This document shows, piece after piece, positions 10-34,410 of a stretch of DNA of 46,575 nucleotides. Source of the DNA: Syntrophus aciditrophicus (GTDB taxonomy: Bacteria > Desulfobacterota > Syntrophia > Syntrophales > UBA8958); the NCBI GenBank assembly GCA_020718905.1, contig DYRD01000013.1, positions 1 through 46,575 on the forward strand. The letters are read 5' to 3'. The notes under the pieces are model-generated. The model was not told where the DNA came from and made no database searches. It was given only the letters and a program-made list of their open reading frames with translations. Every line of letters starts with the position of its first letter. Position 1 is the stretch's first letter. Made by a program: the position numbers and the translations under genes.

Positions 10-292
10 TTATAAAAACCTGTATCCTGTCCAAACAACCCCCACCACCTCTAACGTCACGCGATCGTACCGCATGGGACGGTAGTAGCCGCCTTTGATG
101 TCGTCTTCGCGGGTCCAGACGACCTCGACCGGCTTCCCCAACCTTTTCGCCACCTCGGCCGCCTCGGAAACAAAATCCGCCGGGGGGCTGGCCCGGCATC
201 CGAAGCCGCCGCCCAGATAGGATGAGCCCTCCGCTCACGGCCATGCCCGTTTTCAGAAAATAGCGCCCGTCGATTTTGATGATGTCCATCAT
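10..292 (-). pseudogene. Remnant of molybdenum hydroxylase large subunit (isoquinoline 1-oxidoreductase beta-like)
   Basis: The start codon at 292 overlaps the stop of the upstream small-subunit gene (ATGA), the usual arrangement for IorA/IorB-type molybdenum hydroxylases. The first ~25 residues (MDIIKIDGRYFLKTGMAV...) look like the N-terminal export signal of an IorB-type subunit. The reading frame then changes near 225 and continues as GGGFGCRASPPADFV ... VVWTREDDIKGGYYRPM, which is the conserved molybdopterin-binding GGGFG region that normally lies hundreds of residues further in. It stops at 10-12 after ~15 unrelated residues. A family member has about 700 residues; here N-terminus and core have been joined by a large deletion and the C-terminal half is gone. 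It cannot encode an active enzyme. The family assignment rests on the GGGFG and WTREDD motifs. Confidence 0.7.
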
Positions 293-764
293 GATCTCCC
301 CCCCTCTGCCGTCATGCCGGTGGCCTGGCGGACGGCCTGGCGTATCCGTTGATAAGTTCCGCAGCGGCAGAGATTGCCGTTAAGGGCCCCATCGATATCC
401 GCATCGCTCGGCACATGCTTCTGCGCGAGGAGGGCTGCGGCCGCCATAATATGTCCCGATTGGCAGTAGCCGCACTGCGAAACATCTTGGCTGATCCAGG
501 CCTGCCGCAGGGGGTGTGATCCATCCGGAGACAGCCCTTCAATCGTGGTAATGCTTTTCCCGACAACGGAGGAAACGGGGAGGATACAGGAGCGGGTAGC
601 CTTTCCGTCCACCAGGACAGTGCAGGCGCCGCAAAGTGCCATGCCGCAGCCGAACTTCGTTCCCGTCAAACCGAGATTTTCCCGGATCACCCAGAGCAGG
701 GGTGTCTCGGGGGCCGCCTGGATAAAATATTCCTTGCCGTTTACATAAAGTTTCTATTGAGCAT
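289..764 (-). pseudogene. 2Fe-2S subunit of a molybdenum hydroxylase, frameshifted at the N-terminus
   Basis: The protein carries both [2Fe-2S] sites of the CoxS/XdhC/IorA small-subunit family. The plant-type cluster is [16 protein letters not shown] followed by CILP, and the second cluster is CGYCQSGH ... [13 protein letters not shown]. It would shuttle electrons from the molybdenum cofactor of its partner. The open frame begins downstream of a TAG at 754-756. The expected first residues ([21 protein letters not shown]) are readable directly after that stop, and the likely ATG at 762-764 is one base out of frame. One base therefore seems to be missing between 753 and 764. Without it the only in-frame start is a GTG at 690 that cuts ~20 residues. 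Its partner at 10-292 is deleted, so the pair is probably decaying. Frameshift versus sequencing error cannot be decided here. Confidence 0.72.
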
Positions 765-997: not shown

Positions 998-1372
998 TCA
1001 CGGTTCGCCTTTCCCTCCCGCGGGGCGGTTAATGACATTTACAATATAATCATAGAGTTCCTTTGCATCCTTGCCGGATATCTGCGATTCCGGGTAGACT
1101 GGCATGGGTGCTTCGGGATGGCGGATCACGGCAATGAAAATCTTTAAATCTTTTAGATCCGGGGAACCTCTCAGGGGTTTATAGGGTTTGAGTTTATTGC
1201 CCCCGTCGACATGGCAGATAAGGCAGTTGGCTGCAAAGACTTGCGCCCCCCGTTCGTATGTCTTTGCAGCTCCGGCCAGGGGATTTTCCCCATAAACCAG
1301 ACGGGCTCCGAACCATCCGAGCAGAACGACGGTAATCAGACAAAGCGTATAGAGCGACAGGTGGACATAGAG
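998..1372 (-). pseudogene. Membrane-anchored class I cytochrome c, 5' end lost
   Basis: Reading minus from 1372 to the TGA at 998 gives ~124 residues. First comes a hydrophobic anchor (YVHLSLYTLCLITVVLLGWF), then a class I cytochrome c domain with a single haem site ANCLICHVDGG. After it come APMPVYP, supplying a likely distal Met ligand, and a final helix KELYDYIVNVINRP. This fits a one-haem electron acceptor facing the periplasm. A TGA stop at 1373-1375 lies immediately upstream, and no ATG, GTG or TTG precedes the anchor in frame, so the start is missing through mutation or frameshift. It sits upstream of the 2Fe-2S and molybdenum subunits on the same strand; such hydroxylases often pass electrons to a cytochrome c, so the three are probably one former operon. 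Confidence 0.68.
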
Positions 1373-1537
1373 TCAGGCCCACCTGATTAACTACGATGGA
1401 AATCCCGGTTCCATTGCACCGGATGCCCACTGACAGCAATGTTTGCTCAACCGGCAGAGAAAGCGCAGGAAATCACATTGACGCAAGTCAGACACGGGGC
1501 GCCACCTTGCCATCGGTGTCTGCCTTTTTCATCCTGA

Positions 1538-2578
1538 TCATATCCTGAAGAAAGCCGCATACGCGCCCTGCCCCTTCCTGGCCGCGAGGCTCATGGCGGC
1601 CAGGAGATTGCGGTCGCGGATCAAAAGGCCGACCCGGTCGGCAAGGGCGACCTTATCGCCGGGAGGCACGAGAAACCCCTCCCGGCCGTCCGCCACTACC
1701 TCCGGAATAGCCCCGGACCTAGTGGCGATGACGGGCAGTCCGAAGGCCATAGCTTCGAGATAGACGATACCGAATCCCTCATAAAAGGAAGGAACGGCGA
1801 GGCAATGATGATCCTTAAGAAGAGCCGCCAGTTTTTCATCGGAGACGGTCCCCAGCAACGCTACTTGCTCACTCAAACCCGCCCTGGCGATGAGATTCCT
1901 GATTCGATCGGCATATCCCGTGTCGTCGGCAAAGTTTCCCGCAACGGTCAGTCGCCAGGTTCGCCGGGGCAGGCTGCCCAGGGCGCCGATCAGTTCATGG
2001 AGACCTTTGCGGGGGATCACATTGCCGACGAACAGTTTCTTCAGCGGCCCCGGCCCCCCGCAGCGTTCGACGATGCGGGGGGCGTCAATGTCCGGGTTTA
2101 GGTGATCTCCTCCTGGATAGGCTACAAAGGACGTCCCGTCCATGCCCAGTAAATTCAGGATTACGCCGCGCGTCGTTTCACTGTTAAAGATGAATCCGTC
2201 GACCGTTGCGAGGTACCTCTTTTCCACCAGCCGATAAAGATTATTCCGCCAGGCGGGGCGGAATTCGGAACTAAGGAGATGATGCACAATGGATATGACG
2301 GGACAATTCAGGGTTTTTTTGAGCGTCCCGTTGCAATGGAAAAGAGAGGGGTGGCACAATTCATCCTGAATGAGGACATCGGGGCGGAGCTTCTGCAGGA
2401 CCCGCGGGAGGACGCCGAAAATATTTTCCGTCAGATGCAAAGCATAACTCCCCGCAGGGAGAGAGATGATCTCTTCTCTTGCACCCCTCTTCCGGAGGAT
2501 TTCTACCATTTCGCGATCATAGAGATAGCCTCCCGACACCTGGTCCAGCTCTCCATAGATCATCAGGCAGATATTCAC
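1538..2578 (-). CDS. Glycosyltransferase family 4-like protein
   Basis: The protein has 346 residues and the GT-B architecture. Residues ~1-175 form the N-terminal acceptor domain, starting MNICLMIYGELDQVSGGYLYD. Residues ~180-340 form the nucleotide-sugar domain, with LFVGNVIPRKGLHELI, the glucose/nucleotide-binding stretch SFYEGFGIVYLEAMA (E-x7-E) and GLPVIATRSGAIPEVV. It would transfer a sugar from a nucleotide donor; donor and acceptor are not visible. The start overlaps the stop of the PTPS-like gene by four bases (ATGA), so the two are translationally coupled and it is the last gene of a four-gene operon. The C-terminus (QGAYAAFFRI) ends earlier than in most GT4 proteins, which have another ~15-30 residues, so a small 3' truncation is possible. 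A pterin or folate-like acceptor is suggested only by the operon partners. Confidence 0.85.
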   Translation of the reverse strand: MNICLMIYGELDQVSGGYLYDREMVEILRKRGAREEIISLPAGSYALHLTENIFGVLPRVLQKLRPDVLIQDELCHPSLFHCNGTLKKTLNCPVISIVHHLLSSEFRPAWRNNLYRLVEKRYLATVDGFIFNSETTRGVILNLLGMDGTSFVAYPGGDHLNPDIDAPRIVERCGGPGPLKKLFVGNVIPRKGLHELIGALGSLPRRTWRLTVAGNFADDTGYADRIRNLIARAGLSEQVALLGTVSDEKLAALLKDHHCLAVPSFYEGFGIVYLEAMAFGLPVIATRSGAIPEVVADGREGFLVPPGDKVALADRVGLLIRDRNLLAAMSLAARKGQGAYAAFFRI

Positions 2579-2955
2579 GAAATCTCCCGACGACAGGACG
2601 CCCAGTTATCATCATCTTCATAGACCTTTACGGTAAGAGCCCTAAGCTGAGCCTCCTTTAGCCCTTCCAGCAGCCGTCGGCCGCACTGATCGGCCAGATG
2701 CTCGATGCTGGGGTTCAATCCGGCAAATTCATCGAGATCATTAAGGATGCAGCCTTTCAGCCTTGAGATGATCCCGTTCAAGCGTGCTTCGATGTCGACG
2801 ATATCCATGAGGTAGCCATGTTCATTCAGATTTGACCCCTCCAGGCTGATCTCCACGGTATAGCGATGGGAATGAATTTTATTTTCATTTCCCCAGTCAC
2901 CGCCAACCAGATAATGCCGCGCGATAAAACACCGCCTCACCCCAACTGTGAACAT
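2575..2955 (-). CDS. 6-pyruvoyl-tetrahydropterin synthase-like protein (QueD/PTPS superfamily, Glu at the catalytic Cys position)
   Basis: The 126-residue length is normal for the T-fold PTPS/QueD family, which rearranges the side chain of dihydroneopterin triphosphate. The three zinc histidines are visible as H14 and H28-S-H30 (motif ENKIHSH). In QueD and PTPS a catalytic cysteine sits four residues before the first His of this HxH pair. Here that place is held by E24, as described for PTPS-III proteins that substitute for dihydroneopterin aldolase. The later conserved part LDEFAGLNPSIEHLA fits the pterin-anchoring region. It lies between an MDR dehydrogenase (65-bp gap) and a glycosyltransferase (4-bp overlap). 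A queuosine role is unlikely because no queC/queE/queF is nearby. Family is certain; the reaction is inferred. Confidence 0.85.
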   Translation of the reverse strand: MFTVGVRRCFIARHYLVGGDWGNENKIHSHRYTVEISLEGSNLNEHGYLMDIVDIEARLNGIISRLKGCILNDLDEFAGLNPSIEHLADQCGRRLLEGLKEAQLRALTVKVYEDDDNWASCRREIS

Positions 2956-3020
2956 TATTCATTCTCCTGCTTCTTTGTCTTTCGCCCAATAATCATCCTG
3001 CCCGCTAATCCGGGACCCAC

Positions 3021-4043
3021 TCAATACACAAGCAAAACCTGAAGGCAATCTTCATTCTGCTTATCCAGGCATTCAAAGGCAGCGGCGGACCGGTGGAAAG
3101 GAAAGCGGTGCGTAATGTACTGCTCAGGATTAATCTCCCGAAGGAATTGCCAGGCAAGATCGAGACGTCGTGATTTTGTCCAGCGTCCCAGATATTCAGG
3201 ATTGATGCTGCTGACCTGGCTGCCGATAAGGCTGATGCGGCTGCGGTGAAATCGGCCGCCCAGATTCAGATAGACGGGCTTCCGGCCATACCAGGAGCCA
3301 ATGATGACCCTGCCGCTGAATCCTGTCACATCGACCGCCTGAGCCAATGCTTCCGGGGCTCCGGAAATCTCGAAGGTCAAATCGGCGCCCTCCTTCCCTG
3401 TGGGTTCAAGGGCCTTCATGATCCGGTTGATAAAGCCCGGATCATCAGGGTCGAAGGTTGTCCATGCACCCGATCCAAGGGATAGGTCACGGCGGCAAGG
3501 AAGCCGGTCAACCGTCGACAGGCCCGCCAGGGGATATTTGGTGAGCAGGGCCGTTGTCAGCAGACCGACAACTCCCTGACCAAAAACAACCACCCGCTCG
3601 CCGATTGTCCGCCGGCCGTCCATCACGAAATTAATCGCCGTCTCGAGATTGGGGAGAAAAAGCGCCTGCGCTGGTGAAGTGTCTCCGGGAAGAAGCAGCA
3701 GTTCATTGAGGTCGGCAATAAAATGGCTTTCATGGGGATGAAAGAAAAAAACCACCCGCCCTTCCCATTCGCGGGGGACACCCCTTCCCGCAGACCTAAC
3801 CTCTCCTACCGTCGCATAGCCATACTTCAGGGGAAAAGCGCAGGGCCCCCTAAGGCTGGGAATAGAAGCGTCAACAGGCATATCGGGGGGGGCGAGACCA
3901 CGGTAGAGGAGCAGTTCGGAGCCGGCGCTGATCGCCGAGAGCAGGGTCCTGACCAGGACCTTTCCGGCCGGAGGCGGCGGCAGCGACTCCTCGCGAATTT
4001 GGACCTGTCCGGGTCCCGTAAAATAGAGCGATGCACGCTTCAT
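3021..4043 (-). CDS. MDR-superfamily (zinc-type) alcohol dehydrogenase-like oxidoreductase
   Basis: The 340 residues show the medium-chain dehydrogenase layout: a GroES-like N-terminal domain (SAISAGSELLLYRG), then a Rossmann domain with VVVFGQGVVGLLT (GxGxxG) near residue 155 and the acidic end of strand 2 at STVDRL. The catalytic zinc Cys of classical alcohol dehydrogenases is absent: the usual GICGSD segment reads SAISAGSE, as in the BchC-like and sugar-oxidoreductase branch. It is therefore probably NAD(P)-dependent but not a classical zinc alcohol dehydrogenase. Its start overlaps the stop of the RibD-type gene by four bases. The product would oxidise or reduce a side-chain hydroxyl or keto group in the same pathway as the PTPS-like and RibD-like enzymes. 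The substrate is unknown. Confidence 0.85.
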   Translation of the reverse strand: MKRASLYFTGPGQVQIREESLPPPPAGKVLVRTLLSAISAGSELLLYRGLAPPDMPVDASIPSLRGPCAFPLKYGYATVGEVRSAGRGVPREWEGRVVFFFHPHESHFIADLNELLLLPGDTSPAQALFLPNLETAINFVMDGRRTIGERVVVFGQGVVGLLTTALLTKYPLAGLSTVDRLPCRRDLSLGSGAWTTFDPDDPGFINRIMKALEPTGKEGADLTFEISGAPEALAQAVDVTGFSGRVIIGSWYGRKPVYLNLGGRFHRSRISLIGSQVSSINPEYLGRWTKSRRLDLAWQFLREINPEQYITHRFPFHRSAAAFECLDKQNEDCLQVLLVY

Positions 4044-4765
4044 TGTTCATTCCATACCATATCGGCCCTGAGGATGACATCCGATCCGCACGGTTCCCAT
4101 TCCATATTCCGAAGTACGGGAGGATTGGAAAGGTTGATCTGCAAAGGCCATACGGCATGCATCCCACCGATATGAACGTGACTGATCGTCAAAACGAGCT
4201 GATCTACAAGTTGATGTTTAAGAAAACTGGTGATGATTTCCGCCCCGCCCTCCACCATGAGGCTGGTAATCCTCATGTCGATGAGCCGCCTGAGCAGTGC
4301 CGCCAGGTCAATCAGGCCGTTCGAATTGGACGGTATGCGCAGGATCTTGACGCCTGATCTCATCAGGACCTGTTCGCGCTCGGCATCGGGTCTCTCGGAT
4401 GTTGCGATCCACGGGATTCGCTGATTTTTGAGGGCATGGGCATCGAGGGGGAAGCGCAGTCGCCCATCGACAACGATGGGTTGAGGATTTTTGCCCTGGA
4501 CATGCCTAACGGTCAGGTAAGGATTATCGGCCAGGACTGTACCGATACCGACAAGAATCCCCTGATGGATGGACCGCAGACGGTGAGTGAAGACCAGGGA
4601 ATCTTCGCAACTAAGGGCCAGTGGCCTTCCGGGCCGGTAAGCAATCGACCCGTCTATGCTCTGGGCATAACTCAGCGTTACATAAGGGAGGCCGCTTTTC
4701 GTCCTTCCGGGCTCATCTTCGAGGCATGAGCTTATTTTGCTGAATATATCGTATCGGGACTTCAT
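4040..4765 (-). CDS. RibD C-terminal (DHFR-like) reductase domain protein
   Basis: The 241-residue protein consists of the RibD_C fold alone, without the deaminase domain. Typical features are YVTLSYAQSIDGSIA near residue 30, the NADPH-binding stretch GILVGIGTVLADNPYLTVR near 90, PIVVDGRLRFP, and the signature SLMVEGGAEIITSFL near 190. Members reduce pyrimidine or pterin-like substrates with NADPH (5-amino-6-ribosylamino-uracil phosphate in riboflavin synthesis; dihydropterins in DHFR-like relatives). No other riboflavin gene is nearby. It is the first gene of a four-gene operon behind a good promoter at 4812-4839, with a short leader and no strong ribosome-binding site before the ATG at 4765. 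A role in a reduced-pterin pathway is inference from the neighbours. Confidence 0.85.
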   Translation of the reverse strand: MKSRYDIFSKISSCLEDEPGRTKSGLPYVTLSYAQSIDGSIAYRPGRPLALSCEDSLVFTHRLRSIHQGILVGIGTVLADNPYLTVRHVQGKNPQPIVVDGRLRFPLDAHALKNQRIPWIATSERPDAEREQVLMRSGVKILRIPSNSNGLIDLAALLRRLIDMRITSLMVEGGAEIITSFLKHQLVDQLVLTISHVHIGGMHAVWPLQINLSNPPVLRNMEWEPCGSDVILRADMVWNEQ

Positions 4766-4811
4766 AGTAAGATATTTATAGACCCAATGATTATATTAAG
4801 ACGGTCTTCGT

Positions 4812-4839
4812 AATATAAGTCGTATAAAACAACTGTCAA
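4812..4839 (-). promoter_or_regulatory. Sigma70-type promoter of the RibD/MDR/PTPS/GT operon
   Basis: On the minus strand TTGACA (4834-4839) is followed after 16 bases by TATATT (4812-4817). Transcription would begin near 4805, about 40 bases before the ATG at 4765. The -35 is a full consensus match and the surroundings are AT-rich. Confidence 0.65.
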
Positions 4840-34336: not shown

Positions 34337-34410
34337 TGGCTGGGAGACAAGGATTTGAACCTTGATTCACGGAGTCAGAGTCCGTTGTCCTACCATTGAA
34401 CGATCTCCCA
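34337..34410 (-). tRNA. tRNA-Gln (anticodon CUG)
   Basis: On the minus strand the 74-base sequence folds as a cloverleaf: acceptor TGGGAGA/TCTCCCA, D arm with TTCAATGGTAGGAC, anticodon stem ACGGA/TCCGT around CTCTGAC (anticodon CTG), and T arm AAGG-TTCAAAT-CCTT. Discriminator G and an encoded CCA follow. It is transcribed alone from a near-consensus promoter at 34478-34506. Confidence 0.96.

Follow-up and report, generated by a model that had tools for sequence, protein, structure and literature searches.

A conserved operon of RibD-type, MDR, PTPS-like and GT4 enzymes in Syntrophus aciditrophicus and relatives, possibly making a glycosylated pterin-type compound

What do four genes make together that lie in one direction, on the minus strand, at 1538-4839 of a 46,575-nucleotide stretch of the Syntrophus aciditrophicus genome (contig DYRD01000013.1 of assembly GCA_020718905.1, positions 1 to 46,575; hereafter the window)? 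An initial annotation had read them as a RibD-type reductase, an MDR-superfamily dehydrogenase, a PTPS-like protein and a GT4 glycosyltransferase, and domain matches confirm all four families. Our preferred answer, to which we assign a probability of roughly 45%, is that the operon represents, in minimal form, a widespread pathway that leads from the product of GTP cyclohydrolase II (GCHII) to a glycosylated pterin-type compound.

The four genes clearly travel together. When the PTPS-like protein is searched in 60 related genomes and the matches are inspected, five further genomes of the window's order show the sequence MDR-PTPS-GT4 as well, with RibD directly upstream in four of the five. An MDR profile made from those genomes and run against the GTDB genome collection yields 568 confirmed relatives, the best 80 of which were kept; together with the five same-order loci they form a set of 85 loci, 82 of them distinct. 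As these loci are picked as best MDR matches, the taxonomic spread that they display is a lower bound and no census. MDR, PTPS and GT4 are present together in 62 of the 82 distinct loci and all four families in 51, so that the co-occurrence elsewhere on which the initial annotation had made its proposal depend is found in several phyla. The order RibD-MDR-PTPS-GT4, on one strand and with a span of 2.5-4.3 kb, is kept in 48/82, and many loci outside these 48 are interrupted by contig ends; with the same order and strand in so many loci, the arrangement is far beyond chance. The hosts are Desulfobacterota, Chloroflexota (mostly Anaerolineae), a Cohnella, Binatota, Methanotrichaceae, Bathyarchaeota and Halorussus, as well as metagenome-assembled genomes labelled Gammaproteobacteria. 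Tree-distance correlations reach 0.62 for RibD-MDR and 0.65, the highest, for MDR-PTPS (permutation maxima 0.30 and 0.32), and the MDR-GT4 correlation also lies above its null; shared host ancestry contributes to all pairs. It is almost certain that the cassette is one functional unit.

Within lineages the cassette is patchy. MDR is present in 9 of 155 sampled genomes of the window's order (6%), in 15 of 297 sampled Desulfobacterota genomes (about 5%) and in 46 of 249 sampled Anaerolineae (18%; E below 1e-110), a sporadic distribution as expected of a transferable accessory pathway. Its occurrence in only one of eight same-genus genomes, a window GT4 that has lost its conserved C-terminus and a flanking CoxS-like gene without start codon could also be taken as signs of a chance neighbourhood of housekeeping paralogues, or of a decaying remnant. 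However, the order kept across phyla refutes chance as a general explanation, and in the window RibD, MDR and PTPS still have their invariant positions, those of the zinc and nucleotide sites among them; we hold chance or decay to be a very improbable explanation.

Where the pathway starts is best read from the relatives, after removal of many antisense and overlapping open reading frames as spurious during neighbourhood clustering. In the 85 loci, the recurring neighbours are an S-adenosylmethionine (SAM) methyltransferase (42), GCHII (40), a CDP-alcohol phosphatidyltransferase (24) and an acyltransferase (11). The active-site Tyr motif of GCHII is retained in 36 of the 40, and 15 loci have GCHII joined to the RibD reductase in one uninterrupted open reading frame (domain check on locus L053). 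The remark of the initial annotation that no further gene of riboflavin, queuosine or folate synthesis adjoins the four holds for the window, whose operon is a minimal version of the wider cassette with no GCHII gene, but it misleads as a guide to function, as GCHII lies directly upstream of RibD, or is fused to it, in relatives. Annotated plasmids serve as a separate check. Haloarchaeal megaplasmids (L124-L129, L133) carry MDR and PTPS, most of them also GT4 and the methyltransferase. In the two examined, a GTP cyclohydrolase IIa, confirmed by PF05165 (E 2e-82 and 2e-87), stands beside MDR: its gene overlaps the MDR gene in Natrarchaeobaculum and shares a gene run with a CDP-alcohol transferase in Haloarcula pelagica. 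GCHII and GTP cyclohydrolase IIa are unrelated, and both open GTP to a ribosyl-pyrimidine. Their recruitment to the same MDR is the strongest argument for a pathway entered from the riboflavin side of GTP metabolism; a GCHII-type product as starting point is highly probable.

A Thiodictyon plasmid has the order MDR-PTPS-GT4-methyltransferase-cytochrome b-RibD-CDP-alcohol transferase, and on a Streptomyces globisporus plasmid a segment of no more than 8 kb holds homologues of MDR, PTPS, GT4 and RibD together with those of GCHII and the CDP-alcohol transferase. On pNG700 of Haloarcula marismortui, a gene of the creatininase family, to which FAPy deformylase belongs, lies near the cassette. In Thermanaerothrix and relatives the operon is interrupted between MDR and PTPS by an acyltransferase gene on the opposite strand (L047:9010-10032, L056:9020-9994 and L069, minus strand), and the cassette MDR of Halorussus ruber has a bacteriorhodopsin-like gene (L101:5969-6721, minus strand) about 1.3 kb away.

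The first gene of the window operon (4040..4765, minus strand) encodes a stand-alone RibD C-terminal-type reductase of 241 aa (PF01872, E 1.5e-41), which scores 157 bits with TIGR00227, over the cut-off of 150, and whose best PDB match is 2azn (E 3e-26), a structure that bears the annotation 5-amino-6-(5-phosphoribosylamino)uracil reductase. D80, P82 and R87 are kept in at least 99% of 68 sequences and E172-G173-G174 in 68/68, and a reductase domain with these conserved residues places the protein among the RibD-type pyrimidine reductases; it is predicted to reduce a ribosylamino- to a ribitylamino-pyrimidine, and we judge this ribityl reduction likely. The domain search finds the reductase domain only, which sets the protein apart from the bifunctional deaminase-reductase RibD of riboflavin synthesis. 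With the deaminase domain absent, the 2-amino group required for a pterin would be retained. The cassette uses the same first two enzyme families as the riboflavin RibA/RibD pair, with GCHII fused to the RibD reductase in 15 loci, but it has neither the deaminase domain nor an adjoining lumazine or riboflavin synthase, and the window genome's own ribE-ribBA-ribH and bifunctional RibD sit elsewhere. The initial annotation had put side-chain processing before reduction. The GCHII or GTP cyclohydrolase IIa of the fuller operons reverses this, placing RibD first, on a ring-opened diaminopyrimidine.

The second gene (3021..4043, minus strand; 340 aa; PF00107, E 8e-9) encodes the MDR dehydrogenase. 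The zinc-ligand Cys and the GHE motif of the family are absent across the alignment, SxISxGTE and YGY being found instead, and a zinc-dependent MDR alcohol or polyol dehydrogenase is ruled out by the loss of these catalytic ligands. SxISxGTE is BchC-like, and BchC (3-hydroxyethyl bacteriochlorophyllide dehydrogenase; TIGR01202) is also the closest NCBIfam model; with 58.9 bits against a cut-off of 291, and with no chlorophyll context in the cassette, the protein is not BchC itself. The chemistry of BchC is the oxidation of a secondary alcohol to a ketone. In the AlphaFold2 model (pLDDT, the predicted local distance difference test, 92) the nearest folds are butanediol, threonine, idonate and sorbitol dehydrogenases. 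From motifs and model, the protein is predicted to be a secondary-alcohol dehydrogenase, and Asp179, which follows the nucleotide-binding motif, suggests NAD as the cofactor.

The third gene (2575..2955, minus strand; 126 aa; PF01242, E 5e-25) encodes a member of the PTPS/COG0720 fold, as attested by its fold, its zinc His triad and its pterin-anchoring Glu. In 70 sequences H14 and H30 are kept in 100%, H28 in 90% and the pterin-anchoring E113 in 100%; N72, P82, S83 and E85 are nearly invariant. E24 replaces the catalytic Cys of QueD in 99% of these sequences, a substitution with a precedent in the PTPS of Plasmodium vivax, whose catalytic residue is E37 according to PDB titles, with Glu as base. 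Three known types do not fit. QueD/PTPS-I, with its CxxxHGH motif, Cys and Asp-His dyad, is ruled out, and TIGR03367 scores 42.8 bits against a cut-off of 89. PTPS-III of the folate bypass shares the probable catalytic Glu for Cys and the zinc-binding His, but its motif is ExxHGH where the cassette has ExxxHSH (ENKIHSH in the window, the Glu exactly at the Cys position), its Asp-His dyad is lost in the cassette and the context here is not that of folate. PTPS-IV, finally, is excluded by its FGPAQ signature: the window has WGNENK, and FGPAQ appears in the alignment only in the Thiodictyon relative.

PTPS-IV is nevertheless the closest known type. In the AlphaFold2 model of the window protein (pLDDT 96), the best fold match is SCO6650 of Streptomyces coelicolor (PDB 3d7j; TM-score 0.91, against about 0.8 for QueD), which is also the top sequence match and whose own sequence bears FGPAQ. 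In the part of the source that describes the PTPS-IV cluster (AGeNNT cluster-node 62), its neighbours are GCHII (PF00925) and RibD_C (PF01872) (PMC5445326), the same company as in the cassette relatives, where RibD is present in 69/85 and GCHII in 40/85 loci, the window having RibD only. The same part makes no mention of MDR, GT4, methyltransferase or CDP-alcohol transferase, and the cassette PTPS differs from the FGPAQRLHG type by its ExxxHSH motif with a full zinc triad, at about 27% identity, and in the window by the lack of GCHII. As fold, context and partners are common to both, the most fitting place for the window PTPS is in a sister version of the PTPS-IV pathway, and this type of cassette had been glimpsed earlier as the PTPS-IV neighbourhood.

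These relationships also nourish a different reading, in which the product would remain at the level of a ribityl-diaminopyrimidine or a lumazine-like compound without ever being turned into a pterin; the MDR would then oxidise another position or act late, and the PTPS-like protein would bind the pyrimidine. GCHII and RibD chemistry yields a pyrimidine first, the cassette PTPS lacks both the Cys and the Asp-His dyad, and SCO6650, the closest fold, is of the PTPS-IV type, which a 2016 review assigned to F420 synthesis as unpublished work while leaving the role of PTPS-V unclear (PMC5041015). However, a zinc triad and a pterin-anchoring Glu kept in nearly all sequences argue for a bicyclic pterin substrate, and no F420 gene is recognised among the recurring neighbour families, only part of which are annotated. 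We consider a product that stops at the pyrimidine stage unlikely, yet deserving of attention.

The fourth gene (1538..2578, minus strand; 346 aa from a GTG start; PF00534, E 7e-38) encodes a GT4 glycosyltransferase about 41-64% identical to its cassette orthologues. The initial annotation had noted that cyanobacteria glycosylate pterins, and the glucosyltransferases known for tetrahydrobiopterin (BH4; 5ze7, 9v0l) do share the GT4 fold and the expected outcome, a sugar on a pterin. The window GT4 does not resemble them more closely than it does other members of the GT4 family: in a sequence search 5ze7 (E 2e-12) ranks below 6kih (9e-20), 3c4q, 7qsg and others, several of them non-pterin enzymes, so that nothing singles it out as a BH4 glucosyltransferase, and no BH4 pathway gene is recognised in the cassette. 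A glycoside as product is rather probable. The copy in the window is peculiar in that it lacks the P-x-W motif found in more than 90% of the orthologues. Its frame ends early (1538-1620, minus strand), and another frame reads on as GRVCGFLQDMIRMKKA, a plausible C-terminal helix, which suggests either a real truncation by a small deletion and frameshift or an assembly error of the draft genome.

Taken together, the families can be arranged as the following pathway. GCHII would open GTP to 2,5-diamino-6-ribosylamino-pyrimidinone 5'-phosphate, an activity encoded in or fused within the operon in relatives and presumably supplied by the housekeeping RibBA in the window genome. The RibD-type reductase would then convert the ribosyl to a ribityl chain, and the MDR would oxidise its C2' hydroxyl to a ketone. 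This ketone corresponds to the Amadori intermediate of GTP cyclohydrolase I, so the free 5-amino group would be expected to close the ring spontaneously, giving 7,8-dihydroneopterin 3'-phosphate; reduction at C1' and oxidation at C2' would stand in for the Amadori rearrangement of that enzyme. The Glu-type PTPS-like enzyme would process the side chain and GT4 would add a sugar. In fuller operons methylation would follow, and perhaps attachment to a phospholipid by the CDP-alcohol phosphatidyltransferase. The gene order GCHII-RibD-MDR-PTPS-GT4-methyltransferase parallels this order of steps. Work by Adams et al. in 2014 is said to describe a chlamydial route to dihydroneopterin phosphate by RibA and the isomerase TrpF. 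That route is a precedent for making a pterin from the GCHII product with GTP cyclohydrolase I bypassed; unlike its direct Amadori isomerase, the cassette would use a reductase and a dehydrogenase, that is, two redox steps.

The steps of this scheme do not stand on equal ground. The first two are well supported by context and families; all reactions are inferred, above all the third and fourth, as is the product. C2' oxidation with pterin closure is put forward tentatively, as less likely than not, and several points weigh against the pterin reading as a whole. The detour of reducing and then oxidising is costly, and GTP cyclohydrolase I achieves the same without redox chemistry. The Asp-His dyad of PTPS is lost, the LDH of the genome's own QueD aligning with LKG, and with the Cys gone as well PTPS-like chemistry may be absent. 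For RibD-PTPS, RibD-GT4 and PTPS-GT4, the tree-distance correlations stay at or below the permutation maximum. The window GT4 is probably truncated, so that this copy may not complete the pathway. Finally, the window genome already encodes FolE2 beside QueD, ribE-ribBA-ribH, a bifunctional RibD and HPPK, so a second dihydroneopterin route is not needed for folate, and FolE, counted without FolE2, is found in 26/46 Anaerolineae carriers against 108/203 non-carriers (Fisher p 0.74). This equal frequency means that the cassette is not a general replacement for FolE, and in the window genome it is not the sole source of pterins or flavins.

The same data bear on the idea that the cassette replaces or backs up GTP cyclohydrolase I on the way to folate or queuosine. 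It draws on two genomes, a closed Caldilineaceae chromosome (OY282381; genome G099, locus L114) and a Chloroflexi genome (G063), which carry the cassette and HPPK and in which FolE and FolE2 were looked for and not found, a lead and not evidence. As a general role it is ruled out by the FolE2 of the window genome, which also has QueD, and by the lack of association in Anaerolineae, and GT4 and the methyltransferase have no role in folate synthesis. The idea stays alive for these two genomes and is otherwise very unlikely.

The recurring CDP-alcohol phosphatidyltransferase raises a further alternative, a membrane glycolipid in which this enzyme would link a ribityl-pterin or -pyrimidine to a lipid, a PimA-like GT4 would add the sugar and a flippase-like protein would move the product. 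The enzyme is found in 24 loci where 1.1 are expected (about four genes in each carrier genome, 4 per 3.9 Mb; 1.06 Mb examined), an excess with a Poisson p of about 5e-24 when loci are treated as independent, and it recurs across Desulfobacterota, Chloroflexota, haloarchaea, Thiodictyon and Streptomyces. The acyltransferase of 11 loci and a flippase-like LPG_synthase_TM protein adjoining the cassette in an Anaerolineae operon (L052) point the same way. On the other hand, the majority of loci, among them the window and the five same-order cassettes, have no adjoining CDP-alcohol transferase, and PimA is not a closer match to the cassette GT4 than are other enzymes of that family. The possible lipid side is visible only in relatives and not from the window; a glycolipid as the purpose of the cassette is a realistic but less favoured alternative, and for the full operons we likewise hold a lipid-linked product to be conceivable rather than likely.

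The initial annotation had counted two ATGA overlaps in the window operon, one of which is present, at the RibD stop and MDR start (4040..4043, minus strand), where it may couple translation; the overlap of PTPS and GT4 reads GTGA, the GT4 start codon being GTG. MDR and PTPS are separated by 65 bases. The TTGACA-N16-TATATT sequence noted upstream is indeed found at 4839-4812 (4812..4839, minus strand), 47 bases ahead of the RibD start codon. It has 11/12 consensus bases of a sigma-70-like promoter and is the top of four promoter-like sites, where shuffled sequences average 2.8, which makes it only suggestive as the operon promoter. An Rfam scan of the window gives a single tRNA (34340-34410) and no match inside the operon. 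Downstream of the operon lie a short, apparently membrane-anchored c-type cytochrome with a CLICH motif (1020-1380, minus strand), between GT4 and the CoxS-like gene, and, near the contig end, this CoxS/xanthine-dehydrogenase-type 2Fe-2S small subunit (289-760, minus strand), whose frame has a stop directly before the natural start and no start codon, so that its N-terminus looks broken.

The initial annotation had seen a unit that joins reduction, side-chain chemistry of the pterin type and sugar transfer. As a conserved biosynthetic unit this is supported, but its order of reactions and its starting point are not. Its statement that no characterised pathway is known to have this exact set agrees with the open-licence literature, in which we found no paper or product for the full gene set, for SCO6650 or for a link between CDP-alcohol transferase and PTPS. 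The functions that the annotations QueD, zinc-binding alcohol dehydrogenase and riboflavin reductase ascribe to the cassette genes are probably incorrect. In its most complete form, our proposal is that of a widespread second route from GTP to reduced pterins, without an Amadori step; the end product, in bacteria and archaea alike, would be a glycosylated pterin that in many hosts is also methylated and lipid-linked. In this full extent it is speculative and rather improbable. If it is true, pterin biosynthesis has a route independent of GTP cyclohydrolase I. Even if the chemistry differs, many anaerobes and haloarchaea would have a GTP-derived, sugar-bearing metabolite, perhaps bound to lipid, that can now be tested for directly, and cultured strains for this purpose include Haloarcula, Halomicrococcus and Thermanaerothrix daxensis.

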